NCBI RefSeq assembly: GCF_003712105.1
Contig: NZ_RHLG01000002.1
Span: 558,001 to 622,000, forward strand
Source: Winogradskyella sp.
Lineage (GTDB): Bacteria > Bacteroidota > Bacteroidia > Flavobacteriales > Flavobacteriaceae
DNA: 64,000 bases
Reading direction: 5' to 3'
Made by a program: the position numbers and the translations under genes. This document shows, piece by piece, positions 22,871-61,118 of this stretch. Under the pieces are notes generated by a model that saw only the letters and a list, made by a program, of their open reading frames with translations, did not search any database and was not told the DNA's origin. Position 1 is the stretch's first letter. Each line of letters begins with the position of its first letter.

Positions 22871-23437
22871 TTAGGAATTTAGTTTTGACCTAATTCTGCT
22901 TAGACTTTCAGGATGAATACCCAAATACCGAGCAATTTTGTTTACAGGGATTTGGTGAAGATAATTTCTATGAGATTCAAACATTTGTAAGTAGCGTTCT
23001 TCTGCAGTTTTAGATAAGAAGTCTTTTTCTCGATTTGATTTTCGGATATAAGCTTGTTCAGTAATAATACGTCCAAATTGATTTACATCGATTGAATTAG
23101 CATATGCTTCCATCAGGGCGTCATGTTCTATTCTTTCCATTTCACAATCGGTCAAAGCTGTTAATTTTATATCCGATGGTGTTTGTGTTAAAAAGGATGT
23201 TAGGGCACAAACCATTTCGTTAGTAAAGAAGAAATCAATAATTTTTTCTGTCATGTAACTTTTAATGACCAACTCTACAATTCCACTGTTTATAAAGTAA
23301 ACATGTTTTTCAGTTTGATTATAATCTGTGATTACATCACCCTTATTGAATAGAATTTTTTGTGTAGAAAATGGCAGTTTTTCAATGGTTTGATATTTGT
23401 TTTCAACCACACTTTTATAAAATTCGATAAAATGCAT
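22871..23437 (-). CDS. Crp/Fnr family transcriptional regulator (short type)
   Basis: A 188-residue member with N-terminal cyclic-nucleotide-binding-type beta-roll (INSGIVELVIKSYMTEKIIDFFFTNEMV) and a C-terminal HTH containing VNKIARYLGIHPESLSRIRSKL. The E-SLSR recognition helix keeps the residues that read TGA half-sites in Crp and FNR. It lacks the N-terminal four-cysteine cluster of FNR, so it does not look like a direct oxygen sensor. Many Bacteroidetes genomes carry several such short regulators next to a membrane or efflux gene. Confidence 0.85.
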   Translation of the reverse strand: MHFIEFYKSVVENKYQTIEKLPFSTQKILFNKGDVITDYNQTEKHVYFINSGIVELVIKSYMTEKIIDFFFTNEMVCALTSFLTQTPSDIKLTALTDCEMERIEHDALMEAYANSIDVNQFGRIITEQAYIRKSNREKDFLSKTAEERYLQMFESHRNYLHQIPVNKIARYLGIHPESLSRIRSKLNS

Positions 23438-24356: not shown

Positions 24357-24923
24357 TTATTTAATCTCTTTACGAATTCTACTCAAAGAATATTTGGTGA
24401 CACCTAGGTAAGATGCAATCATGTGTAACGGAACTTGTTGTACAATTTCTGGATGTGTCTTAATCAGGTTTGAATATCGTTCTTGAGCAGTTTCTTTATG
24501 GAGAGCTATCATGCGTTTTTTTAGAAAAACATGGTTAAGTGTAAGCATCATGCGACCCCATTCGCGAAATTCTGGTATATTATGAAAACAATATTGTACA
24601 TCAGTAAAACTGATGCTGTGGAGTTTAGCATCAGTTAGTAACTCATAGTTTTCTTCGCTTGGTTGTTGCTCAAAAAACGATAAGAAATCATTTAAAAAGT
24701 CTGGAGCTGAAAAAAACCGAGTCGTAATTTCGTTGCCTTCTAGATCAATAATATAGCATCTTACTATTCCCGATTCTAAGAAAAATGACTTTTTACTGGT
24801 TTTGCCTTCATTTATAATCAACGTACCTTTAGTTAACGTTTCTTCTTTAAAAAACGTTGCTATTAAGTCTGCTTTATCATCAGACATTGATTTTATTTTT
24901 TTAAGGTAATCTCTAAGTTTCAT
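24357..24923 (-). CDS. Crp/Fnr family transcriptional regulator (short type)
   Basis: A 188-residue paralogue-like relative of the regulator at 22871. The beta-roll (FLESGIVRCYIIDLEGNEITTRFF) precedes the HTH region LHMIASYLGVTKYSLSRIRKEI. In the recognition helix the glutamate that usually contacts TGA is replaced by tyrosine (KYSLSR), so its site is probably different. There is no cysteine cluster. Ligand and targets are unknown; the membrane protein downstream is the nearest candidate. Confidence 0.85.
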   Translation of the reverse strand: MKLRDYLKKIKSMSDDKADLIATFFKEETLTKGTLIINEGKTSKKSFFLESGIVRCYIIDLEGNEITTRFFSAPDFLNDFLSFFEQQPSEENYELLTDAKLHSISFTDVQYCFHNIPEFREWGRMMLTLNHVFLKKRMIALHKETAQERYSNLIKTHPEIVQQVPLHMIASYLGVTKYSLSRIRKEIK

Positions 24924-48759: not shown

Positions 48760-48773
48760 ATGACAAAAATCAT
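48760..48773 (+). promoter_or_regulatory. FNR-like box upstream of hemN
   Basis: ATGAC-AAAA-ATCAT, a palindrome of the RTGAY-N4-RTCAT type. Exactly 22 bases later comes TAGATTTG (48796-48803), a full -7 match, then the hemN ATG at 48824. The box is centred near -43. Confidence 0.75.
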
Positions 48774-48795
48774 CTTTTAAAATTCTTTTCAACTT

Positions 48796-48803
48796 TAGAT
48801 TTG
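48796..48803 (+). promoter_or_regulatory. hemN -7 promoter element
   Basis: TAGATTTG, an exact TAnnTTTG match, 20 bases before the hemN start and 22 bases after the FNR-like box. The usual -33 TTG is missing, as expected for an activator-dependent promoter. Confidence 0.7.
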
Positions 48804-48823
48804 CACAAGTTTAAATCAATTCT

Positions 48824-50185
48824 ATGTGCACTTTAGTTTCAAAATATAATGTTGCTGGTCCAAGGTACACCAGTTATCCTACTGTTCCGTATTGGAATCA
48901 AGATCAATTCTCTTTAAAAGCCTGGAAATCATCATTGAAACAACGTTTTTATGAACGTAAAGATGGTAGAAAAATTAGCCTTTATATTCACTTACCTTTT
49001 TGTGAGTCAATGTGCACATTTTGTGGTTGTACCAAACGCATTACTAAAAACCATGATGTTGAAACTCCATACATAAAAAGTTTAATAAAAGAGTTCAGTA
49101 TGTATGTAGATCTATTGGGCGAAAAACCAATAGTATCTCAAATACATTTAGGTGGTGGCACTCCTACGTTTTTCACTCCAGACAATTTAAGTATGTTGAT
49201 TAATGGCATCTTGATGATGGCTAGAAAGCCCGAAAATGTTGAGTTTAGCTTTGAAGGACATCCTAACAATACTTCAAAAGAACATTTAATTGTACTTAAT
49301 GAACTTGGATTTAAGCGTGTATGTTATGGTGTACAAGATTATAATGAAAAAGTACAGAAGGCTATCAACAGAATTCAACCGTATGAAAATGTTTCTAGAA
49401 CAACATTAACTGCAAGAAGTGTAGGTTATGAATCTGTAGGTCATGATTTGATTTATGGATTACCCTTTCAGACTAAAGAAGATGTAATCAATACTATTGC
49501 ATCTACCGTAAAGCTTCGTCCAGAACGAATAGCTTTTTATAGTTATGCTCATGTGCCATGGATTAAAGGCAATGGGCAACGTGGATTTAAGGATTGTGAT
49601 TTACCTACTGCAAAACAAAAACGAATTCAGTATGAAGTAGGAAAAATGATGTTACTTGACGCTGGATATGAAGACATAGGTATGGACCATTTTGCTTTAC
49701 CAAATGATGAATTGTCTAAAGCAAAGGCTTCAGGTAATCTGCACCGAAATTTTATGGGCTATACATCTCGTAAAACCAATTTAATGATTGGCCTTGGTGT
49801 TTCTGCTATAGCAGATAGTTGGTATGGTTTTGCTCAAAATGTCAAGAGTGTTGAAGCATATCAAGATTTAGTTAACAAAACTATTTTTCCAGTATATCGT
49901 GGTCATATCTTAACTAATGAAGACTTAGTTATAAGACAACACATTTTGAATCTAATGTGTCGTTTTGAGACAAGTTGGGAAGATGACGCTCTATACTTTC
50001 CTGAAATTCCAGATGTATTAGTCAAGTTAAAAGAGTTAGAACATGATGGACTCGTAAATTTGTACACCCATAAAATAGAAGTTACTGAGAAAGGAAAACC
50101 CTTTGTGCGTAACATCTGTTTACCTTTTGATTTGAGATTACAACGAAAAAAACCAGATACTAAGCTCTTTTCAATGACGATTTAA
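48824..50185 (+). CDS. hemN: Oxygen-independent coproporphyrinogen III oxidase
   Basis: Radical-SAM enzyme that oxidatively decarboxylates coproporphyrinogen III to protoporphyrinogen IX without oxygen, needed for haem when oxygen is low. It has 453 residues. The 4Fe-4S cluster motif is CESMCTFCGC (CxxxCxxC), followed by IHLGGGTPTFF and the HemN-specific C-terminal domain. The N-terminal YNVAGPRYTSYPTVPYWN is diagnostic for true HemN rather than the HemW paralogue. The FNR-like box and -7 element upstream suggest microaerobic induction together with the cco genes. Confidence 0.95.
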   Translation: MCTLVSKYNVAGPRYTSYPTVPYWNQDQFSLKAWKSSLKQRFYERKDGRKISLYIHLPFCESMCTFCGCTKRITKNHDVETPYIKSLIKEFSMYVDLLGEKPIVSQIHLGGGTPTFFTPDNLSMLINGILMMARKPENVEFSFEGHPNNTSKEHLIVLNELGFKRVCYGVQDYNEKVQKAINRIQPYENVSRTTLTARSVGYESVGHDLIYGLPFQTKEDVINTIASTVKLRPERIAFYSYAHVPWIKGNGQRGFKDCDLPTAKQKRIQYEVGKMMLLDAGYEDIGMDHFALPNDELSKAKASGNLHRNFMGYTSRKTNLMIGLGVSAIADSWYGFAQNVKSVEAYQDLVNKTIFPVYRGHILTNEDLVIRQHILNLMCRFETSWEDDALYFPEIPDVLVKLKELEHDGLVNLYTHKIEVTEKGKPFVRNICLPFDLRLQRKKPDTKLFSMTI

Positions 50186-50192
50186 TAGTTCA

Positions 50193-50333
50193 CTACTTTT
50201 TTGAATCTATTTCTTGTCGCGATTTATCGTTAGAAGCATTATTGATGCTTTCAATTGCAAGTGTACAGCTTAGTAAGCCTAAGAATAGTATTAGCGCTGC
50301 AACTATTATAAAAATTAAAATGTAAGTATCCAT
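50193..50333 (-). CDS. Small (46-aa) membrane protein between hemN and the SafE gene
   Basis: Short reading frame MDTYILIFIIVAALILFLGL followed by LSCTLAIESINNASN and a charged end RQEIDSKK. One hydrophobic segment (residues 4-25) with a polar tail gives a bitopic small protein, much like the CcoQ/CcoS-type small subunits of cbb3 oxidases. It is read in the same direction as, and 12 bases downstream of, the SafE gene at 50345, so it may be the last gene of that group. No Shine-Dalgarno-like sequence is seen. It could be spurious. Confidence 0.55.
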   Translation of the reverse strand: MDTYILIFIIVAALILFLGLLSCTLAIESINNASNDKSRQEIDSKK

Positions 50334-50344
50334 AACTATTTGAT

Positions 50345-51052
50345 TTAATGACAGCTATGTTTTGAAGATGTTTGTTCAACTGCTACCATTTCTGTTGGTG
50401 ATATATACTTTATTCCTAATCCTAATCCTCTTAAAATGAACAATAGTCCTATTACAACAACAAACACTGGAATCAGTTTCACAATACGTGTTTTTATTGT
50501 TCCTTTTAAAAAATTACCTATGTAAATAGCACTTGTCATAAGTGGAATAGTACCCAGCCCAAAAAATACCATATACAAACTACCTTGCCACATACTACCA
50601 GTGCCTATAGCACCAAAAACTGCCATGTAAACTAGTCCGCATGGTAGTAGTCCATTAAAAAATCCTAGAGTAAAAAACGTGCCTGGTTCTTTCTTTTTTA
50701 TTTGAAACCCAATCTTCTGCTTAATTTTTGAAACAAGATTATATATAGGCTTAGAAAAGTTATATCTATTGAAATATTTATTGGGAATTATAATAACAAC
50801 TATCATAAGAGCACCTATAATGATCGATAGCTGTTGCTGTAAGCCAAACAGTTGCAACCGTTTGCCTAATAATCCAAAAATGAAACCAAGAGCTGCATAA
50901 GTAAATAACCTGCCGCTATGATAACTTAGTATTTCAAGTATGCGTTTAGATTTACGCTTTCTATCTAATGGTAGCAAAAAAGCAATAGGGCCGCACATGC
51001 CAACACAATGTAAGCTACCTAACAAACCCAATATTAACGCGGAATAAACCAT
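50345..51052 (-). CDS. Sulfite exporter TauE/SafE-like membrane protein (CcoH/cco-associated)
   Basis: A 235-residue protein with six membrane segments. It contains the family motif GLLGSLHCVGMCGPIAFLLPL, with HCVGMCGP resembling the UreH/SafE-like copper- or heavy-metal-transport subfamily often found beside cbb3 oxidase genes, and ends with a histidine-rich tail (KHSCH). It immediately follows the FixH gene (no gap). Its likely role is copper delivery or oxidase assembly. Confidence 0.82.
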   Translation of the reverse strand: MVYSALILGLLGSLHCVGMCGPIAFLLPLDRKRKSKRILEILSYHSGRLFTYAALGFIFGLLGKRLQLFGLQQQLSIIIGALMIVVIIIPNKYFNRYNFSKPIYNLVSKIKQKIGFQIKKKEPGTFFTLGFFNGLLPCGLVYMAVFGAIGTGSMWQGSLYMVFFGLGTIPLMTSAIYIGNFLKGTIKTRIVKLIPVFVVVIGLLFILRGLGLGIKYISPTEMVAVEQTSSKHSCH

Positions 51053-51499
51053 TTAATATGTTATTGCTTTTTTGTATAAGTAGGTTTCGTTATTGGTTTC
51101 CCATTCTATAGTTATGTTCCACCGACCATCGAGCAGCCTATTGTCAGGTATGAGCAAATTAGACGTGTTTAGAAGTAATGGAAAATCAAAATCCAGTTTC
51201 TGATTCGATGGTCGATATAGGAACACTTTACCTTTGGTATTTGTTTCATTGATTTCTTCAGGAAAGCTTATAAGCCATCCTTCAGTTGTTTTCTTTCCTT
51301 TAATAGGTTGTGATAATGTTTTCAAATTAGACTCATTATCAATTTCGTTTTGGTAGGCCATTTCTTTAGCATAATATTCTTCCGTTACTAAATCATGGCT
51401 ATACTTTTTATCTGTACTCATAGTAATGACGAGATATAATATAAAGCTCATAAACCCGAGCATCCCTAATACAATCCCTTTTCCCCAATTCCATTTCAT
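51053..51499 (-). CDS. ccoH: FixH-family protein (cbb3 oxidase assembly)
   Basis: A 148-residue single-pass membrane protein: N-terminal transmembrane segment (GKGIVLGMLGFMSFILYLVI), then an extracytoplasmic FixH domain with YYAKEMAYQNEIDN, LISFPEEINETNTKGKVFLY and GRWNITIEWETN. FixH/CcoH is needed for assembly of cbb3 cytochrome c oxidase. It lies 22 bases after ccoG and abuts the SafE gene. Confidence 0.88.
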   Translation of the reverse strand: MKWNWGKGIVLGMLGFMSFILYLVITMSTDKKYSHDLVTEEYYAKEMAYQNEIDNESNLKTLSQPIKGKKTTEGWLISFPEEINETNTKGKVFLYRPSNQKLDFDFPLLLNTSNLLIPDNRLLDGRWNITIEWETNNETYLYKKAITY

Positions 51500-51521
51500 A
51501 ATTCTATCTTTTAATATTTAA

Positions 51522-52943
51522 CTATCTATAATTTCTAGGTCCTAAAAAGGCCGTTGTTGTCGTTTCTATTAAATCGTTATTACTGTAAACACCTATTTCT
51601 AGTCTGTCTTTATCTCCATTAAGTGCACTTGCATTTAACTCTATAAATAATGTACCTTCTGCTAATCCTTGTTGAGGCACAGTAAATTTTTCATGCGATA
51701 CTACTGAAATAGTTCCGTTGTGAGACAGGATTTTAAAAGTGACATCTTCGATATCTTCAGTAGTCTTATTTACCAATTTGTACGTGTAAACGTTGCTTAT
51801 AACATTGTTTGCTTTCCGTTCGTATAGCTGACCAGGTAACCTTAGAATGCGAGCTTCAACATCATTACGTAGGAATAGCATTCCTATTAAAACGGCAGTT
51901 AAAATTCCTAATACGGCACTGTAACCTTTTAATCGTGGACTAAATGTAAATTTTGCTTTTTTCTCAATATTATCTTCACTAGCATAGCGGATTAGGCCCT
52001 TTGGAAGTCCAACATTATCCATCATCTTATCGCAAGCATCAATACAAGCTGTACAGTTTACACATTCTAACTGTGTACCATTTCTGATATCAATTCCTGT
52101 GGGACAAACATGAACGCACTGAAAACAGTCTATACAATCTCCTTTACCAGTTGTAGCTCTATCTTCATTTTTTTTGAATTTTGCTCTTCCTTCTTCTTTT
52201 TCACCACGTTTGTGGTCATAGGCGACTACAATAGATTTATTGTCTAATAAAACACCTTGCAATCTACCATAAGGGCAAGCAATTATGCATACTTGTTCTC
52301 TAAACCAAGCAAACACAAAATAGAATACTCCAGTAAAAATAAGTAGTGAAATAAATGTACTTAGATGGTTTAATGGCCCATTTGTTATGTATCTTAATAA
52401 TTGATCACTACCTATGAGATAGGCTAAAAAAACGTTGGCTATAAGAAATGAAATGATAAAAAAGATACTCCATTTCAATGTACGCTTTTTTATCTTTTCG
52501 GCATTCCATGGCATTTTAGATAAGCGTATTTGTTTACCTCTGTCACCATCAATCCAATATTCGATTCTACGGAATACCAATTCCATAAAAATGGTTTGCG
52601 GACAAATCCAGCCACAAAATAATCGACCAAAAGCTACCGTAAAAAATACCACAAATACAACACCGATAATCATCATAATGACAAATAGGTGAAAGTCTTG
52701 AGGCCAAAAAGGTTGTCCAAAAATATTGAAACGTCGTTCTAATACATTGAACATTAAAAACTGGTTGCCTCCAATTTTTAGAAAAGGTGAAACAAATAGA
52801 ATAGTGAGTAAGCCATAGCTTACAAGTTTACGCCATTCATAGAAACGTCCTTCAGGTTTTTTTGGAAAAATCCACGACCGCTTTCCTTCAGCTGTAACAG
52901 TACTTATACTGTCTCTAAATATTTCATTTGGAGGTGTTTCCAT
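51522..52943 (-). CDS. ccoG: Cytochrome c oxidase accessory protein CcoG
   Basis: A 473-residue membrane iron-sulfur protein that assists cbb3 oxidase maturation, probably by copper reduction. About five membrane segments, the N-terminal GRLFCGWICPQTIFMELVFRR, two ferredoxin-type clusters (CIDCFQCVHVCP and CVNCTACIDACDK), an arginine-rich loop, and a C-terminal Ig-like periplasmic domain are present. It is followed by FixH and SafE genes, the same order as in the classical ccoGHIS group except that ccoI and ccoS are on the other side of ccoNOQP. Confidence 0.93.
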   Translation of the reverse strand: METPPNEIFRDSISTVTAEGKRSWIFPKKPEGRFYEWRKLVSYGLLTILFVSPFLKIGGNQFLMFNVLERRFNIFGQPFWPQDFHLFVIMMIIGVVFVVFFTVAFGRLFCGWICPQTIFMELVFRRIEYWIDGDRGKQIRLSKMPWNAEKIKKRTLKWSIFFIISFLIANVFLAYLIGSDQLLRYITNGPLNHLSTFISLLIFTGVFYFVFAWFREQVCIIACPYGRLQGVLLDNKSIVVAYDHKRGEKEEGRAKFKKNEDRATTGKGDCIDCFQCVHVCPTGIDIRNGTQLECVNCTACIDACDKMMDNVGLPKGLIRYASEDNIEKKAKFTFSPRLKGYSAVLGILTAVLIGMLFLRNDVEARILRLPGQLYERKANNVISNVYTYKLVNKTTEDIEDVTFKILSHNGTISVVSHEKFTVPQQGLAEGTLFIELNASALNGDKDRLEIGVYSNNDLIETTTTAFLGPRNYR

Positions 52944-52991
52944 GAATTAATTTAGTATAAGCTTAACTCGTTTTATTGAATAATTTGATAT

Positions 52992-53960
52992 TTAATTATC
53001 TGCGTTGATTAGGACTTCCTCTGTAGTTTCAGTAGCCTCTATTTCTGCTTCTTGTTCCACAGGTTCTTCTTCAATTGATGCATCTGGATCTATCCAAATA
53101 TCTCCTTCTGCAGCTTTTGGTTCAGCTGGTATAGTGCCTTGAAAACCTAAGATATAACTGGCTACTTGTGCCATTTCTGAAGGTTTTAATTCTGTCTTCC
53201 ACGGTACCATACCTTTTCCATCTCGACCACCTTCTGATATAGTTCTAAATACATTTTTAATGCCACCACCAAGAATCCAATATTCGTCTGTTAAATTTGG
53301 TCCAATACCGCCGCCACCATCAGCTTTATGGCATGCTACACAGCGTTCGTTAAAAATGATTTTACCTGCATTTATATCACTTGCTTCGGTAAGTAGAGTT
53401 ACAGTATTTACATCTACTAAATCCTTAGCAGTTTTTTTCCATTCTTCAATTTCTGCTTTTGCAATTGCAACCTCAGTATCATATTCTTCAGATTGGGTAT
53501 AGTCTCCAAAAACATGAAAACGTGCCAAGTAGATTACTCCAAAAAGGATAGTTGCATAAAACCCATATAACCACCATGGTGGTAATTTATTATCGAGTTC
53601 TAATATGCCATCATAGTTATGGTCTAGTATAATTTCATGTTCTTCTTCTATAGGTTTGCTACCTAATAACTTTTTGTACGTTTCCTTAAACCATTTGAAT
53701 TGGTTAGCTTTTTCTAAAGCCATTTTCTCATCAAATCGTTTTTGTGCTTCTAGATCAAGTGATAAATAAAGCACTCGTTGTAGAGCTGCAACGCAGACCT
53801 CAATAGCCATCATGAACAGAATCACAGTTCCTAAAATAACCCAATACCAAACTTGAGAAAGCGATTGTAATGGTGCCTCTGCTGAGGTCACGTACATTAG
53901 AAATATTGCACTGATTATTGTAAAAAGTGTAATACGAATATAGGATGCGGTTGTTCTCAT
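52992..53960 (-). CDS. ccoP: cbb3-type cytochrome c oxidase subunit III (CcoP)
   Basis: A 322-residue membrane-bound cytochrome c. Two hydrophobic segments at the N-terminus (residues 9-27 and 38-60) and one near residue 130 (PPWWLYGFYATILFGVIYL) precede a single haem c domain with CVACHKADGGGGIGPNL and MVPWKTEL, giving the methionine ligand. Classical CcoP is di-haem; only one CxxCH is present here, so the electron path is shorter. The C-terminus is a long acidic glutamate-rich tail. It overlaps ccoQ by four bases. Confidence 0.93.
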   Translation of the reverse strand: MRTTASYIRITLFTIISAIFLMYVTSAEAPLQSLSQVWYWVILGTVILFMMAIEVCVAALQRVLYLSLDLEAQKRFDEKMALEKANQFKWFKETYKKLLGSKPIEEEHEIILDHNYDGILELDNKLPPWWLYGFYATILFGVIYLARFHVFGDYTQSEEYDTEVAIAKAEIEEWKKTAKDLVDVNTVTLLTEASDINAGKIIFNERCVACHKADGGGGIGPNLTDEYWILGGGIKNVFRTISEGGRDGKGMVPWKTELKPSEMAQVASYILGFQGTIPAEPKAAEGDIWIDPDASIEEEPVEQEAEIEATETTEEVLINADN

Positions 53961-54151
53961 GATTGATTTGATTTTTTGATTATACTATCGTCTAATGGAA
54001 TTTCGCTTACTTCTTTTATATGCTGTTTTTTAGCAGTGAAAACCCACCAAAAAAGAGCAGTAAAAAAGATGAAAAAAATGAGTAATGAAATGATAGGGTA
54101 TATTTCTACGCTATCAATCTGTTCTAGGTTTTGTTTTACAAATTTTAACAT
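53957..54151 (-). CDS. ccoQ: cbb3 oxidase small subunit (CcoQ/FixQ)
   Basis: A 64-residue single-pass protein: LISLLIFFIFFTALFWWVF-type transmembrane segment, then AKKQHIKEVSEIPLDDS. Position between ccoNO and ccoP, overlap with ccoP and spacing of three bases from ccoNO identify it as CcoQ even though the sequence itself is low in information. Confidence 0.82.
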   Translation of the reverse strand: MLKFVKQNLEQIDSVEIYPIISLLIFFIFFTALFWWVFTAKKQHIKEVSEIPLDDSIIKKSNQS

Positions 54152-54154
54152 CGC

Positions 54155-56359
54155 TTATTCGTTTAAATTTACTGCAGTGTCACCTGCATTTTTAACTTTA
54201 ATATCTGTACCTAATCGCTGTAGATAAGCAATAAGTGCAACGACCTCTCGATCTTTCATATCTATAAAGTCTTCATTATTATCTTTTGCATACGTTTTAT
54301 CAGCCTCATAGGCTTTAGCAAAATCTGGATCTGTATAGAGGTTTTGTTCAATTTTTGCTCCTTGCTCATCCATCGATTGTTGTGCGTTTTCAATGTCTTC
54401 TAAAGTATATGGAACACCTAAGGTTTTCATAGCTCTCATTTTATCTTCAGTCAGGCTCTTGTCGAGTTCATTTTTAATTAACCATTTATATGAAGGCATT
54501 ATTGAACCCGAAGATGTGCTTTGAGGATCGTAAAAATGATTTAGATGCCAATTGTCACTGTATTTGCCACCTATACGCAATAAGTCTGGTCCTGTGCGCT
54601 TGCTTCCCCAAAGGAATGGATGGTCGTAAACAAACTCACCAGCTTTTGCATACTCGCCATAACGTTCTACTTCGCTTCTAAATGGCCTCACCATTTGTGA
54701 GTGACATGCATTACAGCTTTCCCTAATGTAAATATCGCGACCTTCTAGTTCAAGAGGCGAGTATGGTTTTACGCTACTAATTACAGGAACATAATCGTCT
54801 ACCATTAATGATGGAATAATTTGAACCATACCACCAATAAGAATTGCGATTGTAGCATAAATGGTAAGTTTTACCGGACGTCTCTCTAACCATGTGTGGT
54901 AACCTTCTTTAGCTGTACGCTTTTTGGTTACTTTTTGTAGTGGTGCAGCCTCAGCAAGTTCGTCTGTTACTTTCTGTCCAGCTCTTGCGGTCATAATTAC
55001 ATTATATACACCGATTAAAGCTCCTACAACAAACATACTTCCGCCAATAGCACGCATCCAATACATTGGAATAATCTCGCTTACCGTTTCAAGGAAATTA
55101 CCATATACTAATGTGCCATCAGGGTTAAATTGTTTCCACATGGATGCTTGCACAAATCCAGCTACATACATTGGTAAAGCATACATAATGATACCTAGTG
55201 TACCTACCCAAAAATGAACATTAGCCAGTTTTGTTGACCACAACTTTGTTTTAAATAGTTTAGGAATTAACCAATAGACCATTCCGAAGGTTAAGAAACC
55301 ATTCCATGCCAATGCACCAACATGTACATGAGCAATAACCCAATCACTAAAGTGAGCAATAGCGTTCACATTCTTTAGAGATAGCATTGGACCTTCGAAG
55401 GTTGCCATACCATAACCAGTAATAGCTACTACCATGAATTTTAAAACAGGGTCGGTTCTTACTTTGTCCCACGCACCACGTAACGTTAATAGCCCGTTAA
55501 TCATTCCACCCCAAGAAGGTGCTATAAGCATAACCGAAAATGCAACTCCAAGATTTTGTGCCCAATCTGGTAGTGAAGAATACAATAGATGATGTGGTCC
55601 TGCCCATATATAAATGAAGATGAGTGACCAGAAGTGTACTATTGATAATCTATAAGAATATACAGGTCTATTAGCAGCTTTAGGTACAAAGTAGTACATC
55701 AATCCAAGAAATGGTGTTGTTAAAAAGAAGGCTACTGCGTTATGGCCGTACCACCATTGTACTAGCGCATCTTGGACTCCGGCATAAACCGAGTAACTTT
55801 TTAGAGCACTAACAGGGATTTCAATACTGTTTACAATATGGAGTACAGCGACAGTAACAAATGTTCCTAGGTAAAACCAAATGGCTACATATAAATGGCG
55901 TTGCCTTCTTTTTAAAATTGTACCAATGAGGTTGGCTCCAAAGGCCACCCAAACTAGTGCTATGGCAATATCAAAAGGCCATTCTAATTCGGCATATTCT
56001 TTTGATGTCGTATAACCTAATGGTAAGGTTATAGCTGCCCCAACAATAATTAATTGCCATCCCCAAAAATTGAAATTACTTAGCCAATCTTTCCACATTC
56101 GGGCTTTAAGTAATCGTTGCGTAGAGTAGTAGACTCCTGCAAAAATTGCATTACCTACAAAGGCAAATATTACGGCATTTGTATGCAAGGGTCTTAATCT
56201 ACCAAAGCTAAGCCACGATATTCCATCTGTAAGATTAGGGAATAAGAACATAAATGCGAGTAATAGTCCTACTGCCATTCCGATAATACCCCAAAACATT
56301 GTTGCTACAATGAATTTTCGGACTATCTTATTATCGTAATAAAACTGTTGTACTTCCAT
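54155..56359 (-). CDS. ccoN: Fused cbb3 oxidase catalytic subunits CcoN-CcoO
   Basis: A 734-residue fusion of CcoN (haem-copper subunit I, residues about 1-475) and CcoO (mono-haem cytochrome c, about 500-734). CcoN has twelve or so membrane helices with HNAVAFFLTTPFLGLMYYFVP, the haem-copper histidines (HFWSLIFIYIWAGPHHLLYSSLP) and HFSDWVIAHVHVGALAWNGF. The CcoO part carries the haem c motif CNACHSQMVRPF and MPSYKWL. The fusion is typical of Bacteroidetes. It catalyses oxygen reduction with high affinity. It lies 6 bases after ccoS, in an operon running ccoS-ccoNO-ccoQ-ccoP. Confidence 0.96.
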   Translation of the reverse strand: MEVQQFYYDNKIVRKFIVATMFWGIIGMAVGLLLAFMFLFPNLTDGISWLSFGRLRPLHTNAVIFAFVGNAIFAGVYYSTQRLLKARMWKDWLSNFNFWGWQLIIVGAAITLPLGYTTSKEYAELEWPFDIAIALVWVAFGANLIGTILKRRQRHLYVAIWFYLGTFVTVAVLHIVNSIEIPVSALKSYSVYAGVQDALVQWWYGHNAVAFFLTTPFLGLMYYFVPKAANRPVYSYRLSIVHFWSLIFIYIWAGPHHLLYSSLPDWAQNLGVAFSVMLIAPSWGGMINGLLTLRGAWDKVRTDPVLKFMVVAITGYGMATFEGPMLSLKNVNAIAHFSDWVIAHVHVGALAWNGFLTFGMVYWLIPKLFKTKLWSTKLANVHFWVGTLGIIMYALPMYVAGFVQASMWKQFNPDGTLVYGNFLETVSEIIPMYWMRAIGGSMFVVGALIGVYNVIMTARAGQKVTDELAEAAPLQKVTKKRTAKEGYHTWLERRPVKLTIYATIAILIGGMVQIIPSLMVDDYVPVISSVKPYSPLELEGRDIYIRESCNACHSQMVRPFRSEVERYGEYAKAGEFVYDHPFLWGSKRTGPDLLRIGGKYSDNWHLNHFYDPQSTSSGSIMPSYKWLIKNELDKSLTEDKMRAMKTLGVPYTLEDIENAQQSMDEQGAKIEQNLYTDPDFAKAYEADKTYAKDNNEDFIDMKDREVVALIAYLQRLGTDIKVKNAGDTAVNLNE

Positions 56360-56365
56360 AGTTTT

Positions 56366-56548
56366 TTAGTTGTTTGTACTATTTGTATTGGGTGATTTTT
56401 CTGTTTTTATTTCGTCTTCAAAAAGAATTCGTATAGATGGAGTATAAGTGTCATCATATTGTCCTTTTCTCACAGAAAAAATGAAAGCAACAAAAAAGAC
56501 AAGTGCTACAATAACACTAATTGCTAACAGCATATAAATAATACTCAT
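56366..56548 (-). CDS. ccoS: cbb3 oxidase maturation protein CcoS
   Basis: A 60-residue membrane protein: MSIIYMLLAISVIVALVFFVAFIF followed by the typical VRKGQYDDTYTPSIRILFEDE. It is needed for cofactor insertion into the cbb3 oxidase. The FNR-like box at 56598 and a one-mismatch -7 element put the operon promoter just upstream. Confidence 0.93.
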   Translation of the reverse strand: MSIIYMLLAISVIVALVFFVAFIFSVRKGQYDDTYTPSIRILFEDEIKTEKSPNTNSTNN

Positions 56549-56567
56549 ACCTACCTGAATTTGATTG

Positions 56568-56575
56568 TAAAACTA
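56568..56575 (-). promoter_or_regulatory. -7 promoter element of the cco operon
   Basis: TAGTTTTA on the minus strand differs from TAnnTTTG in the last base. It stands 22 bases from the FNR-like box and 19 bases before the ccoS ATG. Confidence 0.6.
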
Positions 56576-56597
56576 CCATCACTTTTTACCAAAAAAG

Positions 56598-56611
56598 ATG
56601 ACTTTTATCAG
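56598..56611 (-). promoter_or_regulatory. FNR-like box of the cco operon
   Basis: ATGAC-TTTT-ATCAG, one mismatch to RTGAY-N4-RTCAT. It lies 50 bases upstream of ccoS in the gap after the 56637 gene. Confidence 0.7.
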
Positions 56612-56636
56612 TTTGCATATTTTCTTTTTTACACTA

Positions 56637-57023
56637 TTATACTTCTATGTACAATAATGCCAGTTTTGCCTTTTGATTGATAGTACTAAGCCTATTATTT
56701 AAGGGGCATGATGGAGCTTCAGCCATTTGATTATTCGACTTGTATATTGCGTTTAGTTTTTCTATAGCATGAATGAAATTTTTTAAAGTCCGTTGCCAGT
56801 ATTTTTCTATTGTAGCACAAATCAAAATTTGCTTGTATTGAACTTGTTGTAAGTGTTCTAATTGTTTTTCAAATTGATTTAACCAAGTCATTCCAGCCAG
56901 ACTTTTTTTATCATTAAAGTTGTTATGTAACAGACTCACAATTTCATTAGTTCCGTACTCTTTTGCTGCTATTACAAATGCTAAATCAGGATTGCTTGAT
57001 TGCATAGATTTTACAGATTTCAT
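56637..57023 (-). CDS. Uncharacterised protein between ccoI and ccoS
   Basis: A 128-residue cytoplasmic protein, starting MKSVKSMQSSNPDLAFVIAAKEYG, mainly helical, with NQFEKQLEHLQQVQYKQILICATIEKYWQRTLKNF and a single CPL. It overlaps the ccoI stop by four bases and is therefore translationally coupled to the copper P-type ATPase gene. I recognise no family. Co-regulation with ccoI under the palindrome at 59471 is expected, suggesting a role in oxidase biogenesis or copper handling. Confidence 0.65.
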   Translation of the reverse strand: MKSVKSMQSSNPDLAFVIAAKEYGTNEIVSLLHNNFNDKKSLAGMTWLNQFEKQLEHLQQVQYKQILICATIEKYWQRTLKNFIHAIEKLNAIYKSNNQMAEAPSCPLNNRLSTINQKAKLALLYIEV

Positions 57024-59407
57024 ACTCTTAATTTTTTGGTTACCAAATAGGTGTATATTGTTGTAAATACTACTATACTTATAGAACTTAGGGGCATTAG
57101 TATAGCCGCTATTACAGGTTTTAAATGTCCAGTTATAGCAAATCCTAGTCCAATAAGATTATATAGTAATGAGAAAATGAATGCATATTTAATGATGCGA
57201 ATTGCTTTACGTGACAGAGAAAAAAACTTTGGGAGTAATGAAAACTGATTAGCATCTAGGATACCATCACATGCTGGTGAAAAAACATTGATGTTTTCTG
57301 AAATTGCTATACCAACATCACTCTGCGCTAGTGCTCCTGCATCGTTTAAACCATCACCCAACATCAAAACCTTTTTTCCTTGAGATTGGAGTTTTTTTAT
57401 AAAATCTAGCTTGTCTTCTGGTTTTTGATTAAAAAAATACTCTGTGTGTTTTGGTAGTAATTTTGAAAGTGCTTCTCGTTCATTGTCATTATCACCTGAT
57501 AAAACAATAAGATTGTACTTTTTTAAATTATTGAATGTTGATTTTAATGCGTTTCGGTAATCGTTGCAAAAACTGTAAAACCCTTTATAATCGTTAGAAG
57601 TTGCTACATGTACTTGAGTTGTGTTGTGATTTTCAACTTGATTTTGAGTGTGGTTTGATTGATTTATATAATTAAGGCTTCCAGCATATATATGTTGCTT
57701 ATTTTTTGAACCATGAATTCCTTTGCCAACATCTTCTTTAAAATCATCTAAAGTGTAAATTTCTTCACTTTGTAACCATTGGTATAATGCTCTACTAAGT
57801 GGATGATTCGAAGAACGTAATGTATTGGTTAGTAAATTTTGTTCTTCTGGGTTTAGTGCTTTACCATGATAAGTAATATTATTTTTTTCGCTAGTTGTAA
57901 GCGTACCAGTTTTATCAAATACAAGTGTATCTAATTGTGACATCCGTTCGATAATCTCAGCATTTTTTAAGTACAGTTTTGCCTTGCCAAAATAGCGCAG
58001 AATATTACCTAAAGTAAAAGGTGCTGCTAGTGCAATTGCACAAGGACATGCTACGATAAGCACAGCCGTAAATACATTTAGAGCTTCAGCAGGCAAATAC
58101 CACAACCAAAAACCGAGTGCTAGAATGGCAATGCTAATAATTACAAGTGTAAAGCGTTTACTAATCTGATCTGTGAGCGTCTGAAAAGCTGATGTATTCT
58201 TTTTATTGAACACATCATTTGACCAAAGTTGTGTAAGGTAACTCTGTTCGACGGCATTTATTACTTCTAATAAAATGCTTCCACCTGCTTGACGGCCGCC
58301 AGCAAATACTTTACTGCCAGAACTCTTAGCAACGGGTTGTGTTTCGCCCGTTACAAAACTATAATCAATAAAAGCATTACCAGAAATTAAAATAGCATCA
58401 ACAGGAATGAGCTCTTCATTGCGTATTAAAATTCTATCGCCTGGCTGTAAATTTTTGATTTGGGTCTGCTTTTCTTCATTACTGTCTTTGGCTAATTGAG
58501 TAACTGCAAGTGGAAAGTAAGACCTGTAATCACGCTCAAAAGATAAATACGCATAGGTTTTTTTCTGAAAGAACTTGCCAAGCAATAAAAAGAATACTAA
58601 ACCAGATAGACTGTCAAAAAAACCTGTACCAATATCTAGTATAACTTCTAAAGCAGATCTAACAAATAAGACACTTATTCCAAGTGCGATAGGTACATCT
58701 ATATTAAATAGTTTTGAACGTAGTCCTTTAAATGCAGAAATAAAATAATCCCAACCTGAATAAAAAACCACAGGTAATGCAAACAAAAACATTAACCAAC
58801 GGAACACAAATTTGAAACGATCCAACCAAAATTCATCTACCTCAAAGTATTCAGGAAATGATAAAAACATGATATTCCCAAATGCAAATCCTGCAACACC
58901 AAGTTTATATATTAAGCTACGGTCAGTTTTCTTTTGTTTAGTATCATCGTCTTCTAACGAAATGTATGGCTCATAACCAAGTCGAGTAAGTAGTTGAACT
59001 ACATTAAAAAGCGAAAGCGCTTGAGTGTTAAATTGTATTCTAACCGTTTTTTCTGGGAAATTAACCTGTGAACTAATGATACCATTGTTTATTTTCCCAA
59101 GATGTTCTAGTACCCAAATACATGAACTACAATGAATAGAAGGTATTAAAAGGTTAACGATTTGGGTATCTTGCTCATTAAATTCAAGTAATTTAGATGC
59201 TATTTGCTCATCTTTCAGATAATCAAACTTGCCCTCAAAACGAATAGGTGAAATACCCGGTGATTGTTCGAGGTCATAATAGTAAGTGAGGTCATTCTCG
59301 TTTAATATTTCGTAAACAGTTTTACATCCATTACAACAGAAGTGTTTGTCTTGAAGCACAATAGTTGTGTCTCTGCAATCATCACCACAATGGTAACAAC
59401 TTTCCAT
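57020..59407 (-). CDS. ccoI: Copper-type P1B ATPase for cbb3 oxidase maturation (CcoI/FixI)
   Basis: A 795-residue P1B-type ATPase that transports copper for oxidase assembly. Residues 1-60 hold a cysteine-rich metal-binding element (YHCGDDCRDTTIVLQ, FCCNGCKTVYEIL), residues about 80-150 an HMA-like domain with IHCSSCIWVLEHLG, then TM helices, the metal site ACPCAIALA, the phosphorylation site VFDKTGTLT, and MLGDGLNDAGALAQSDVGIAIS. The gene is directly after a 28-base palindromic FNR-like site. It is followed by the 56637 gene with overlap. Confidence 0.95.
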   Translation of the reverse strand: MESCYHCGDDCRDTTIVLQDKHFCCNGCKTVYEILNENDLTYYYDLEQSPGISPIRFEGKFDYLKDEQIASKLLEFNEQDTQIVNLLIPSIHCSSCIWVLEHLGKINNGIISSQVNFPEKTVRIQFNTQALSLFNVVQLLTRLGYEPYISLEDDDTKQKKTDRSLIYKLGVAGFAFGNIMFLSFPEYFEVDEFWLDRFKFVFRWLMFLFALPVVFYSGWDYFISAFKGLRSKLFNIDVPIALGISVLFVRSALEVILDIGTGFFDSLSGLVFFLLLGKFFQKKTYAYLSFERDYRSYFPLAVTQLAKDSNEEKQTQIKNLQPGDRILIRNEELIPVDAILISGNAFIDYSFVTGETQPVAKSSGSKVFAGGRQAGGSILLEVINAVEQSYLTQLWSNDVFNKKNTSAFQTLTDQISKRFTLVIISIAILALGFWLWYLPAEALNVFTAVLIVACPCAIALAAPFTLGNILRYFGKAKLYLKNAEIIERMSQLDTLVFDKTGTLTTSEKNNITYHGKALNPEEQNLLTNTLRSSNHPLSRALYQWLQSEEIYTLDDFKEDVGKGIHGSKNKQHIYAGSLNYINQSNHTQNQVENHNTTQVHVATSNDYKGFYSFCNDYRNALKSTFNNLKKYNLIVLSGDNDNEREALSKLLPKHTEYFFNQKPEDKLDFIKKLQSQGKKVLMLGDGLNDAGALAQSDVGIAISENINVFSPACDGILDANQFSLLPKFFSLSRKAIRIIKYAFIFSLLYNLIGLGFAITGHLKPVIAAILMPLSSISIVVFTTIYTYLVTKKLRV

Positions 59408-59435
59408 AGTCTAATTTTTCAAATTTGCTTATACC

Positions 59436-59443
59436 TGAGGCAA
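59436..59443 (-). promoter_or_regulatory. -7-like element of ccoI
   Basis: Reading the minus strand, CAATTTTG begins 23 bases after the FNR-like palindrome ends (22-base spacer) and has one mismatch to TAnnTTTG (C for T). Placement relative to the ccoI start is plausible. Confidence 0.5.
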
Positions 59444-59463
59444 AATTGAATATTAATCACTTC

Positions 59464-59491
59464 TTAAAAGATGATAAAAATCATCTTTTAA
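59464..59491. promoter_or_regulatory. FNR-like palindrome between ccoI and the 59549 gene
   Basis: A perfect 12-bp inverted repeat around AAAA: the core ATGAT-AAAA-ATCAT occupies 59471-59484, with flanks TTAAAAG and CTTTTAA. It is the longest and most symmetrical of the five sites and could serve both divergent genes. Confidence 0.75.
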
Positions 59492-59548
59492 GATTTTTTT
59501 GAATTAAAGAATTGTATTAGTTCTTAAATTGTTAGAAAAAAGTATAGC

Positions 59549-59773
59549 ATGAAAACCAATGGAATGTTTTGGTTAGCATTAACAACTTCTATTCTCATAA
59601 TAGTAACCATTTTTGCGGCCATGAATCTCATCTTCTCAACGGTATTTTATTTAACTATTGTTGGTCAAGTATTACTTGTTTTTTCAGTTGTTAAAGTCCT
59701 AAAAGACGATTATAAAACTGATAAAACATTTGAAGATTTCTATGAAGATCGATCAGACTTAGGAAGAAATTAG
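59549..59773 (+). CDS. Small membrane protein divergent from ccoI
   Basis: A 74-residue protein with two hydrophobic segments (FWLALTTSILIIVTIFAAMNLIF and FYLTIVGQVLLVFSVVKVL) and an acidic C-terminus (KTFEDFYEDRSDLGRN). No recognised family. Location under the FNR-like palindrome, opposite to ccoI, suggests a link to the low-oxygen respiratory system. A hairpin follows it. Confidence 0.65.
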   Translation: MKTNGMFWLALTTSILIIVTIFAAMNLIFSTVFYLTIVGQVLLVFSVVKVLKDDYKTDKTFEDFYEDRSDLGRN

Positions 59774-59793
59774 TTCATCTCTGACAGAATAAA

Positions 59794-59825
59794 AGAAGCC
59801 CTTAACTACGCTGTTAAGGGCTTCT
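59794..59825. terminator. Terminator hairpin between the 59549 gene and uspA
   Basis: AGAAGCCCTTAAC/GTTAAGGGCTTCT perfect 13-bp stem with a six-base loop. The minus strand side ends in CTTCTTTTATTC, which suits termination of uspA; on the plus strand it lacks a long T-run. Confidence 0.8.
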
Positions 59826-59869
59826 AAACAATTATTATTAACCAATACTAATAATCGTTTATATCATTT

Positions 59870-60703
59870 TTACATCTTTACAGTTAGCACCGGCATTTTT
59901 GCATGATTTGCAACATCTTCGCTAATGCTACCTTGCAAGAAGTGCGCTAATCCTTTTCTACCATGAGTAGGTATTGCAATAATATCAGCGCCAACTAGCG
60001 CAGCATATCTCATAATACCTTGTTCTACAGTATAATCAGAAAATCGCTTTACTGTTTTTATCGCTTCAACTGGATTAGAATGTTTCACTTCTTTAAAGAA
60101 GTCTAATAAGACGTCGTCCATTTCATAAGTAGTTTTAAAATTATTAGCTGGAGTGTTTACATATAAAAACTCTAAACGTGTACCGAGCATTTTATTAATT
60201 TCAACTATACGATTGTAAGCAGAAACAGTCTCGAGTTTAAAATCACTTGCATACAATACAGTTTCTGGTGCAAAGTTTAAATCATTATCCTTTATTACTA
60301 ATACAGGTATCTCTGAAGAGCGAACTACTTTTTCTGTATTGCTGCCCATAAAAAATTCCTCTAAACCTTGACTGCCATGCGATCCCATTACTATGAGATT
60401 TACATCCAGTTCAATTGCCATTTCGGATACAGATGCAAAGCTTAAATGCTTTTGCAGTACTGGTTCTACTATTACACCATCTAAAAAAGAAACTTGAGTA
60501 AACTCTTCAAATTTCTTGCCTATAAGTTTACTGTAATAAAGTGCTTCTTCAAAATTATTTGGTTCTTTAGTTAAGCCACTTTCAATACCAGCCATATGGG
60601 TAAGAACAATCTTGGCGTTAACACGTTTTGCTATAATTGCAGCTACTTTTAAAGCTTTTTTTGATGTGTCTGAAAAGTCTACGGGTATTAATAGTGTTTT
60701 CAT
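59870..60703 (-). CDS. Two-domain universal stress protein
   Basis: A 277-residue cytoplasmic protein with two Usp domains (about residues 1-145 and 150-277). The ATG at 60703 (MKTLLIPVDFSDTSKKALK) is chosen: the upstream ATG at 60733 lies inside the predicted -7 element. Both domains carry the ATP-binding G-x2-G-x9-G pattern: GSHGSQGLEEFFMGSNTEKVV and THGRKGLAHFLQGSISEDVA. Tandem Usp proteins in Bacteroidetes often respond to low oxygen or energy stress. An FNR-like box and matching promoter precede it. Confidence 0.9.
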   Translation of the reverse strand: MKTLLIPVDFSDTSKKALKVAAIIAKRVNAKIVLTHMAGIESGLTKEPNNFEEALYYSKLIGKKFEEFTQVSFLDGVIVEPVLQKHLSFASVSEMAIELDVNLIVMGSHGSQGLEEFFMGSNTEKVVRSSEIPVLVIKDNDLNFAPETVLYASDFKLETVSAYNRIVEINKMLGTRLEFLYVNTPANNFKTTYEMDDVLLDFFKEVKHSNPVEAIKTVKRFSDYTVEQGIMRYAALVGADIIAIPTHGRKGLAHFLQGSISEDVANHAKMPVLTVKM

Positions 60704-60730
60704 GAGAAAAGTATTTGTGTGATATAAAAT

Positions 60731-60738
60731 CAAAATTA
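60731..60738 (-). promoter_or_regulatory. -7 promoter element of uspA
   Basis: TAATTTTG on the minus strand, an exact match to TAnnTTTG. It begins 22 bases beyond the FNR-like box and lies 28 bases before the chosen start. Confidence 0.72.
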
Positions 60739-60760
60739 GACTATTGATATTTCAAAAAAG

Positions 60761-60774
60761 ATGACATTTATCAT
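60761..60774 (-). promoter_or_regulatory. FNR-like box upstream of uspA
   Basis: ATGAC-ATTT-ATCAT, full match to RTGAY-N4-RTCAT. It has its own promoter on the minus strand with the same 22-base spacing. Confidence 0.75.
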
Positions 60775-60789
60775 CCAATTAAAAACTAG

Positions 60790-60803
60790 GTGATATATGT
60801 CAT
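60790..60803 (+). promoter_or_regulatory. FNR-like box upstream of the HMA gene
   Basis: GTGAT-ATAT-GTCAT, a variant of the box, 15 bases from the uspA box. The -7 element TATGTTTG (60826-60833) follows after exactly 22 bases. Confidence 0.72.
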
Positions 60804-60825
60804 AATTTATGCATAATAAACCTGT

Positions 60826-60833
60826 TATGTTTG
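60826..60833 (+). promoter_or_regulatory. -7 promoter element of the HMA gene
   Basis: TATGTTTG, exact TAnnTTTG, 18 bases before the ATG at 60852. An apparent earlier start at 60831 is inside this promoter and is not used. Confidence 0.7.
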
Positions 60834-60851: not shown

Positions 60852-61118
60852 ATGAATACCAAGGTTACTATTCAGAATTTAAAATGTAGCGGCTGTAAAA
60901 ATTCCATAATTAAGCACATCAAAAAGGTCAATGGTATAAGCAATATCAAAATCGACATAGAATCTAGTGAAGTTGCTTTTGAATATGCTACAGAAAGTGC
61001 ACATATAGAGTTGCGAAAAGCTCTCTCAGCACTTGGATATCCTATAACTGGCGATCCTAATACTATTATGGATAAAGCAAAGTCTTACGTGCAATGTGCA
61101 ATAGGCAGATTACAGTAA
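60852..61118 (+). CDS. Heavy-metal-associated (HMA) domain protein, copper-chaperone-like
   Basis: An 88-residue protein from the ATG at 60852 with the ferredoxin-like HMA fold: VTIQNLKCSGCKNSIIKHIKKVNGISNIKIDIESSEVAF. The C-x-x-C metal site is CSGC. The last 20 residues (DKAKSYVQCAIGRLQ) extend past the usual domain. The FNR-like box and nearby ccoI suggest that it supplies copper to the oxidase maturation system. Substrate and partner are inference from context. Confidence 0.85.
   Translation: MNTKVTIQNLKCSGCKNSIIKHIKKVNGISNIKIDIESSEVAFEYATESAHIELRKALSALGYPITGDPNTIMDKAKSYVQCAIGRLQ

Follow-up and report, generated by a model that had tools for sequence, protein, structure and literature searches.

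The subject of this study is a 64,000-nucleotide stretch of DNA from Winogradskyella sp. (assembly GCF_003712105.1, contig NZ_RHLG01000002.1, positions 558,001 to 622,000 of the forward strand; hereafter the window), in which five copies of a composite promoter element, an FNR-like palindromic box followed after 22 bases by a TAnnTTTG -7 element, stand before genes for haem synthesis, a cbb3 oxidase, copper handling and stress. We propose that these sites define a low-oxygen regulon that is probably read in this genome by a one-protein FixJ-FixK-like activator, a receiver-Crp/Fnr fusion that appears to be interchangeable with FNR.

The five composite sites are real. At hemN, the box ATGACAAAAATCAT (48760..48773, +) is followed by the -7 element TAGATTTG (48796-48803), giving a predicted transcription start at about 48808. 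The cco site, upstream of ccoS, ccoNO, ccoQ (named by position), ccoP and ccoG, consists of box CTGATAAAAGTCAT (56598..56611, -) and -7 element TAGTTTTA (56568-56575), and the ccoI site of box ATGATTTTTATCAT (59471..59484, -) and -7 element CAATTTTG (59441-59448). The two remaining sites precede uspA (box ATGATAAATGTCAT, 60761..60774, -; -7 element TAATTTTG, 60731-60738) and a gene for an HMA-domain protein (box GTGATATATGTCAT, 60790..60803, +; -7 element TATGTTTG, 60826-60833). Exactly 22 bases separate box and -7 element at all five, and we recovered the three exact TAnnTTTG elements (hemN, uspA and HMA) and two with one mismatch (ccoS and ccoI) that the initial annotation had described. That annotation had also assigned RTGAY-N4-RTCAT to every site; the pattern fits four, and the cco box begins with C (CTGAY). 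Scored with palindromic sites counted on both strands, the window contains seven oriented matches to RTGAY-N4-RTCAT where 1.35 would be expected, a number reached in 0 of 100 shuffles.

The palindrome by itself says little, because the box alone occurs 49 times in this genome and its reversed pattern 67 times; we therefore dropped it as evidence. The exact composite occurs four times, with no match for the reversed control. When only the inner core was demanded and spacers of 8-38 bases were allowed, 18 matches were found (9 reversed), four of them at the claimed distance and no more than two at any other. Across 199 genomes of the family Flavobacteriaceae, a looser composite (RTGAY-N4-RTCAY-N22-TAnnTTTR) yielded 1468 matches, present in 158 genomes, compared with 31 for its reversed control. 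A spacer of 22 accounted for 100 of 129 matches in 12 genomes chosen by hand, most of them rich in sites, with spacers of 12-32 allowed (21 in 8 matches, 23 in 7; reversed control, 8). Finally, we scanned 148 genomes of the phylum that are at least 90% complete for TGAY-N4-RTCAT-N22-TAnnTTTG; by hand-summed counts there were 87 matches in 15 genomes of the family (control 0), while two further genomes of the order had 14 (0), 20 further genomes of the class 29 (1) and the remaining 111 genomes 15 (3). The composite is thus more typical of the class than of the phylum as a whole.

We then determined the consensus from 70 regions upstream of hemN, comprising 30 best-matching loci and 40 chosen ones (20 with the fusion, 20 without) out of 130 genomes with a match. 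Because a first count broke spacing ties towards 22, it was repeated without that bias. A box was present in 60 of the 70 regions, with a -7 element at 22 bases in all 60 (56 exact), and none of these 60 promoters had an exact -7 element at any other spacing. The enrichment in related genomes that the initial annotation predicted was thus borne out, and before respiratory genes it holds for hemN, the gene surveyed widely. The logo reads [A/C]TGAY-AT[A/T]T-RTCAT-n-TTTT-N16-TAnnTTTG. Among the outer bases, the promoter-proximal one is T in 58 of 60 promoters and the distal one A in 35 and C in 22, so the box consensus is [A/C]TGAY-N4-RTCAT; counted on both strands, the outer pair is A/T or C/T in 56 of 60 exact composites from the 70 regions. 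The half-site thus departs from the Escherichia coli FNR consensus in its outer bases, as the annotation had noted, and the E. coli consensus TTGAT...ATCAA does not describe these sites: a TTGAY..RTCAA composite gave just 71 matches in the 199 genomes (control 12; hand-summed), some of which seem to be a different box, TTGATATAGGTCAA. This second box, TTGATATAGGTCAA or TTGACATAGGTCAA, stands 22 bases before TAnnTTTG in family genomes such as G033, G147, G113 and G160, and looks like the site of what we presume to be an NnrR/DNR-type regulator with the same spacing. Directly after the hemN box, at -33 to -30, lies a TTTT conserved in 51-58 of 60 promoters per base, which may be a residual sigma contact at the place of the -33 element.

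The invariant spacing has a simple explanation. In a transcription start map of Flavobacterium psychrophilum, TAnnTTTG lies at -12 to -5 (PMC9723704). A 14-base box set 22 bases before an element in that position is centred at -41.5. The initial annotation had estimated the centre to be near -43, where it expected the -33 element; with the corrected value the box lies next to the place of that element. The class II FNR promoter FF-41.5 likewise has its site at -41.5 (PMC4505428). A class II activator on a TAnnTTTG promoter would therefore be expected to show a spacing of 22, and this geometry is not new in itself: 22 nucleotides from box to -10-type element are what -41.5 means. With an inverted repeat TGAY-N4-RTCA centred at -41.5, the position being borrowed from the F. 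psychrophilum map, these are very probably class II Crp/Fnr sites.

Which protein reads them? The initial annotation had proposed an FNR with four N-terminal cysteines. A search of the Winogradskyella genome (99.72% complete) at E 1e-25 returned no FNR match, and none of its 11 cNMP-domain matches, 10 of them above the cut-off, carries the FNR-type cysteine set. Because no fnr gene was found at this threshold, we rejected FNR as the regulator in this genome, and the candidate is instead a receiver fusion with a single cysteine (C190). Two short genes of Crp/Fnr type lie in the window at 23096-23350 and 24594-24842 (-) (loci L008 and L011), the former encoding an ExxSR helix. Elsewhere in the family FNR is common: orthologues are present in 118 of 199 genomes by our own class cut-off (best E <1e-40), with 30 genomes without a listed FNR match counted as lacking it. 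Cysteines at positions 4, 7, 53 and 106 were found in 37 of 37 flavobacterial FNRs read (L146 and 36 others), where C4 and C7 follow by construction from a counting pattern that demanded CxxC, C53 and C106 do not, and 37 of 39 loci tried passed. The third cysteine is not at the position it has in Aliivibrio FNR, so the cluster may be held differently.

The candidate is a 352-residue protein encoded at 158706-159764 of contig C6 that combines Response_reg, cNMP_binding and HTH_Crp_2 domains in one chain. Its gene is immediately preceded by one for a PAS histidine kinase, and a composite site and a usp gene immediately follow it. The best PDB match of its Crp half is FixK2 (4i2o, 56.3 bits), followed by FNR (54.6 bits); the NCBIfam FixK model scores 60 bits, below its cut-off of 300. 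All 10 fusions aligned share the receiver residues D9, D10, D52, S82 and K104, which, by what we take to be the set of a working receiver (acid pair, Asp, Ser/Thr, Lys), predict a functional domain. The PAS domain of the kinase is closest in the PDB to FixL (best matches 8js5, 1d06, 2cmn and 1dp6) and DosP, and the 12 best of its 16 PDB matches all bear the name FixL, DosP or heme PAS sensor protein; the NCBIfam FixL model gives 103.9 bits (cut-off 850). A histidine aligned to what we take to be the haem-ligand position of FixL is kept in 68 of 77 kinases among the loci listed.

The recognition helix connects this fusion with flavobacterial FNR. Both have a TExxIR-type helix, and among the Crp/Fnr proteins of the Winogradskyella genome only the fusion has it. 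A study of E. coli FNR names E209, S212 and R213 as its contacts (PMC4505428); fusion and flavobacterial FNR keep the E and the R, and Ile replaces Ser212. Two distant fusions with an SR helix (L226, L246) gave no usable sites. We considered the Ser-to-Ile change as the cause of the altered outer base and found this attractive but unproven: some genomes with an IR helix lack sites, and a Pseudomonas putida FNR with Cys at the Ser212 position still uses a TTGAT site (PMC4505428). Taken with its genomic setting, the helix makes the fusion the likely reader of the boxes in this genome.

Site numbers follow both proteins. The fusion is present in 86 of 199 family genomes (the tool's tally was 87; G002, a receiver-only match, was left out and G194, a partial match, was kept). 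The median number of sites per genome is 16.5 where fusion and FNR are both present (n = 48), 7 with the fusion only (n = 38), 5 with FNR only (n = 70) and 0 with neither (n = 43), 34 of the 43 genomes in the last class having no site at all. Genomes with both thus have roughly twice the sites of those with one. A one-to-one link of sites and fusion was rejected, since 38 of the 113 fusion-less genomes have at least five sites; nearly all of these carry an FNR of 225 residues, which accounts for most fusion-less genomes with sites. FNR came up when these 38 were contrasted with 22 of the 40 fusion-less genomes with zero sites and four genomes with the fusion. The hemN site is kept in 12 of 15 fusion-only genomes examined. 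The co-variation with a four-cysteine FNR that the initial annotation proposed to test holds in part: sites do track FNR, and they also track the fusion, including in genomes without FNR.

We next considered the surroundings of the fusion gene. Among the 86 family genomes with a fusion, the 30 best-matching loci, our own included, were read, and in 26 of them a box with 22 bases and TAnnTT lies 15-40 bp past the stop codon of the fusion. A wider listing gave the best 80 named loci, a selection and no census, which come from Winogradskyella, Algibacter, Maribacter, Lutibacter, Arenibacter and others and reach as far as Chitinophagaceae and Hymenobacter. Of 81 loci (those listed and our own), 77 have a histidine kinase gene before the fusion, and three of the remaining four start near a contig end. 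Among the loci listed, a usp gene lies at most 450 bases downstream in 46 of 78, the spacer is 22 in 63 of 77 cases at 44 closer loci and in 16 of 20 at 36 more distant ones, and ccoNO lies no more than 10 kb away from the fusion in 13 of the 36 distant loci. One genome (G061) has an operon of kinase, fusion, usp and FNR genes, divergent from ccoI.

Several observations weigh against the favoured reading. Among fusion-only genomes, G022 has zero sites and G156, G195 and G054 have no box before hemN. Six of 70 FNR-only genomes lack sites, and the five of these FNRs that were read all have the IR helix. Four of the 43 genomes with neither protein carry at least three sites (G048, 20; G147, 9; G051, 4; G138, 3), three of them being 73-88% complete and G138 99%. 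Genomes with neither are often small, which makes lifestyle a partial confounder of their lack of sites; complete genomes of at least 3 Mb with neither protein (G039, G073, G087, G122 and G177) are also without sites. Among the loci listed, cco genes occur near the fusion in just 0-4 of 44 Flavobacteriaceae loci, depending on the gene. Four short Crp/Fnr proteins of the Winogradskyella genome (L008, L009, L010 and L012) have ExxSR helices, the pattern of E. coli FNR. In the kinases among the loci listed, the distal Arg of FixL is kept in just 34 of 77, with Met in 14.

Some of these observations bear on rival explanations. The short proteins' helices, and the presence of ten other cNMP-domain matches, two of them inside the window, would fit a reading in which another Crp/Fnr protein of this genome, for example a short one, reads the boxes. 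We consider this quite improbable: site numbers follow fusion and FNR, the site is linked to the fusion gene, and the fusion alone carries the IR-type helix seen in FNRs that accompany the same sites. Still less probable, in our judgement, is that a conventional FNR reads the sites and the fusion controls just the Usp cluster. FNR orthologues are indeed common in the family, and FNR-only genomes show these same sites upstream of both hemN and cco, but the near-complete genome studied here yielded neither an FNR match at the threshold used nor the cysteine pattern, and most fusion-only genomes examined keep the hemN site. An artefact of chance or composition in AT-rich promoters, with which the lack of genome-wide enrichment of the box alone would agree, is refuted by the reversed-pattern controls of the composite and by its essentially single spacing, and has next to no probability.

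The nature of the signal is a separate matter. If the fusion is the regulator, its PAS kinase could sense redox or some other cue rather than oxygen via haem; the frequent replacement of the distal Arg speaks for this, and PAS domains with the conserved His also occur in non-haem proteins. The names of the best PDB matches, the retention of the His itself and the identity of the targets, which are oxygen-limitation genes, point the other way. On this balance a non-haem cue seems rather unlikely, and oxygen sensed through haem is the somewhat favoured signal.

A mechanism based on the fusion as reader would run as follows. Low oxygen would alter the PAS domain of the FixL-like kinase, for which haem is predicted, and the kinase would phosphorylate the receiver of the fusion. 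A fusion dimer would then bind [A/C]TGAY-N4-RTCAT centred at -41.5, adjoining the -33 place, as we infer from helix, linkage and co-occurrence, and once bound would help RNA polymerase use the TAnnTTTG promoter, so that the cbb3 oxidase, HemN, copper and Usp/stress genes would be switched on. In many relatives, an FNR with a matching recognition helix would act on the same sites, instead of the fusion or beside it. In F. psychrophilum, oxygen limitation raises the expression of cbb3 and haem-synthesis genes (PMC9723704).

The identities of the genes behind the five sites, which the initial annotation had read as haem, cbb3 oxidase, copper and stress genes, are backed by Pfam and NCBIfam matches, with ccoP below its cut-off. 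hemN (48824..50185, +) encodes the oxygen-independent coproporphyrinogen III oxidase (TIGR00538, 412.6 bits; cut-off 324.95). The cco genes run on the minus strand: ccoS (FixS; 56366..56548; PF03597, and TIGR00847 above cut-off), a ccoNO fusion of cbb3 oxidase subunits I and II (54155..56359; NF011053, 1335 bits, above cut-off; PF00115 and PF02433), ccoP (52992-53960; TIGR00782, 104.5 bits; cut-off 179.95) and ccoG (51522-52943; TIGR02745, 427 bits, above cut-off). A heavy-metal P-type ATPase gene of ccoI type (57020..59407, -; TIGR01525 above cut-off, PF12156 and PF00122) takes its name from context. uspA (59870..60703, -) has two Usp stretches (PF00582 twice), and the HMA-domain protein (60852..61118, +; PF00403) is like a copper chaperone. 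Between ccoI and ccoS, a 128-residue open reading frame (56637-57023, -) overlaps the ccoI stop codon and has a weak MobA-like match far below the cut-off.

To extend the regulon, we searched the window together with 12 stretches surrounding other boxes in this genome, allowing at most two mismatches in all, and checked the genes downstream. We judged 16 of the 19 listed entries credible, of which the window holds five, a single 15-kb stretch of contig C6 nine, and contigs C7 and C5 one each. Those dropped were an entry without a downstream reading frame, one with a reading frame 316 bases off and the ccoI box read in its second, weak orientation. Start codons mostly lie 14-32 bases past the predicted transcription start (15 for ccoS). 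The boxed C6 genes are a D-2-hydroxyacid dehydrogenase and one Usp gene by Pfam, three more Usp genes, a CBS-domain, an Hsp20 and a pyridoxamine-oxidase-like gene by eye, and one gene of 139 residues with no Pfam match; also by eye, the C7 gene is ribosome hibernation factor-like and the C5 gene TonB-like. The C6 stress cluster (L031, 4534-19774) holds six Usp-like reading frames, one of them Pfam-checked, with D-2-hydroxyacid dehydrogenase, CBS-like and Hsp20-like genes and the same boxes, and presumably resembles the hypoxia-dormancy regulons of other bacteria. In two relatives, listed sites have a downstream reading frame in 19 of 19 cases (G034, with fusion and FNR) and 16 of 16 (G017, FNR only). 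Eight target genes, identified by eye, are common to both (hemN, ccoS-NO, thioredoxin-like, cytochrome c, TonB-like, SLC13-like carrier, CBS and lipoprotein), which speaks for a single regulon governed by two kinds of sensor. Sites before cco come from three genomes, the present one, G034 and G017; the wider upstream survey covered hemN.

The closest known parallel is the rhizobial FixL-FixJ-FixK system (and hFixL-FxkR-FixK), which likewise has a FixL-related PAS kinase, a receiver step, a FixK-like part without a cysteine cluster and sites before cbb3 genes; here sites stand before hemN as well as the cbb3 oxidase genes, both of which the regulator may control. In rhizobia, FixL, FixJ and FixK are separate, and a parallel cysteine-cluster protein, FnrN, acts on the same boxes (PMC7888657). 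In contrast to rhizobial FixJ, the receiver is joined to the FixK-like part in a single protein in this genome, so that no separate fixK gene needs induction. The box ends also differ from TTGAT-N4-ATCAA, the promoter is TAnnTTTG, and the predicted regulon extends to Usp, Hsp20-like, CBS-like and hibernation-factor-like genes. The same account tabulates activating anaeroboxes at -32 to -34 in its own numbering (PMC7888657). E. coli FNR at class II promoters offers the TGAT-N4-ATCA core and the centre at -41.5; the differences are that no FNR was found in this genome, that the Ser212 position is Ile and that the outer bases are not the same. Flavobacteriaceae FNR and the fusion have the same sites, helix type and common targets, but FNR would sense directly. 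The DosR hypoxia regulons of mycobacteria combine haem-sensing kinases with many Usp genes and in this are alike; DosR is of NarL type and has no Crp/Fnr part.

Crp/Fnr proteins of a Flavobacteriales genome have been predicted to sense carbon (PMC8510549). In our searches of an open-access library we found no account of a receiver-FixK-like fusion, the altered box or an exchange with FNR in Bacteroidota, although an account elsewhere is possible, nor, in the same searches, of a regulator that switches on the flavobacterial high-affinity oxidase. The parts and the logic are already known; what seems to be new is the joining of receiver and FixK-like part, the change in the box and the proposed swap with FNR.

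In its broadest form, the proposal is that a one-protein FixJ-FixK fusion with a FixL-like haem kinase would be a master low-oxygen activator in Bacteroidota, sharing promoters and an Ile-variant helix with FNR. Lineages would have kept either or both, the sensor being exchanged with DNA code, spacing and regulon unchanged, and genomes with both, which have about twice the sites, would have a two-threshold response. We hold the odds of this wider picture to be close to even, leaning slightly in its favour. For flavobacteria, the analysis yields a concrete site, a candidate regulator and a predicted regulon. It also provides a rule, box plus 22 bases plus TAnnTTTG, by which Crp/Fnr targets can be annotated in a group whose promoter is unusual, and an example from nature in which the sensor seems to have been exchanged while the DNA code was conserved.

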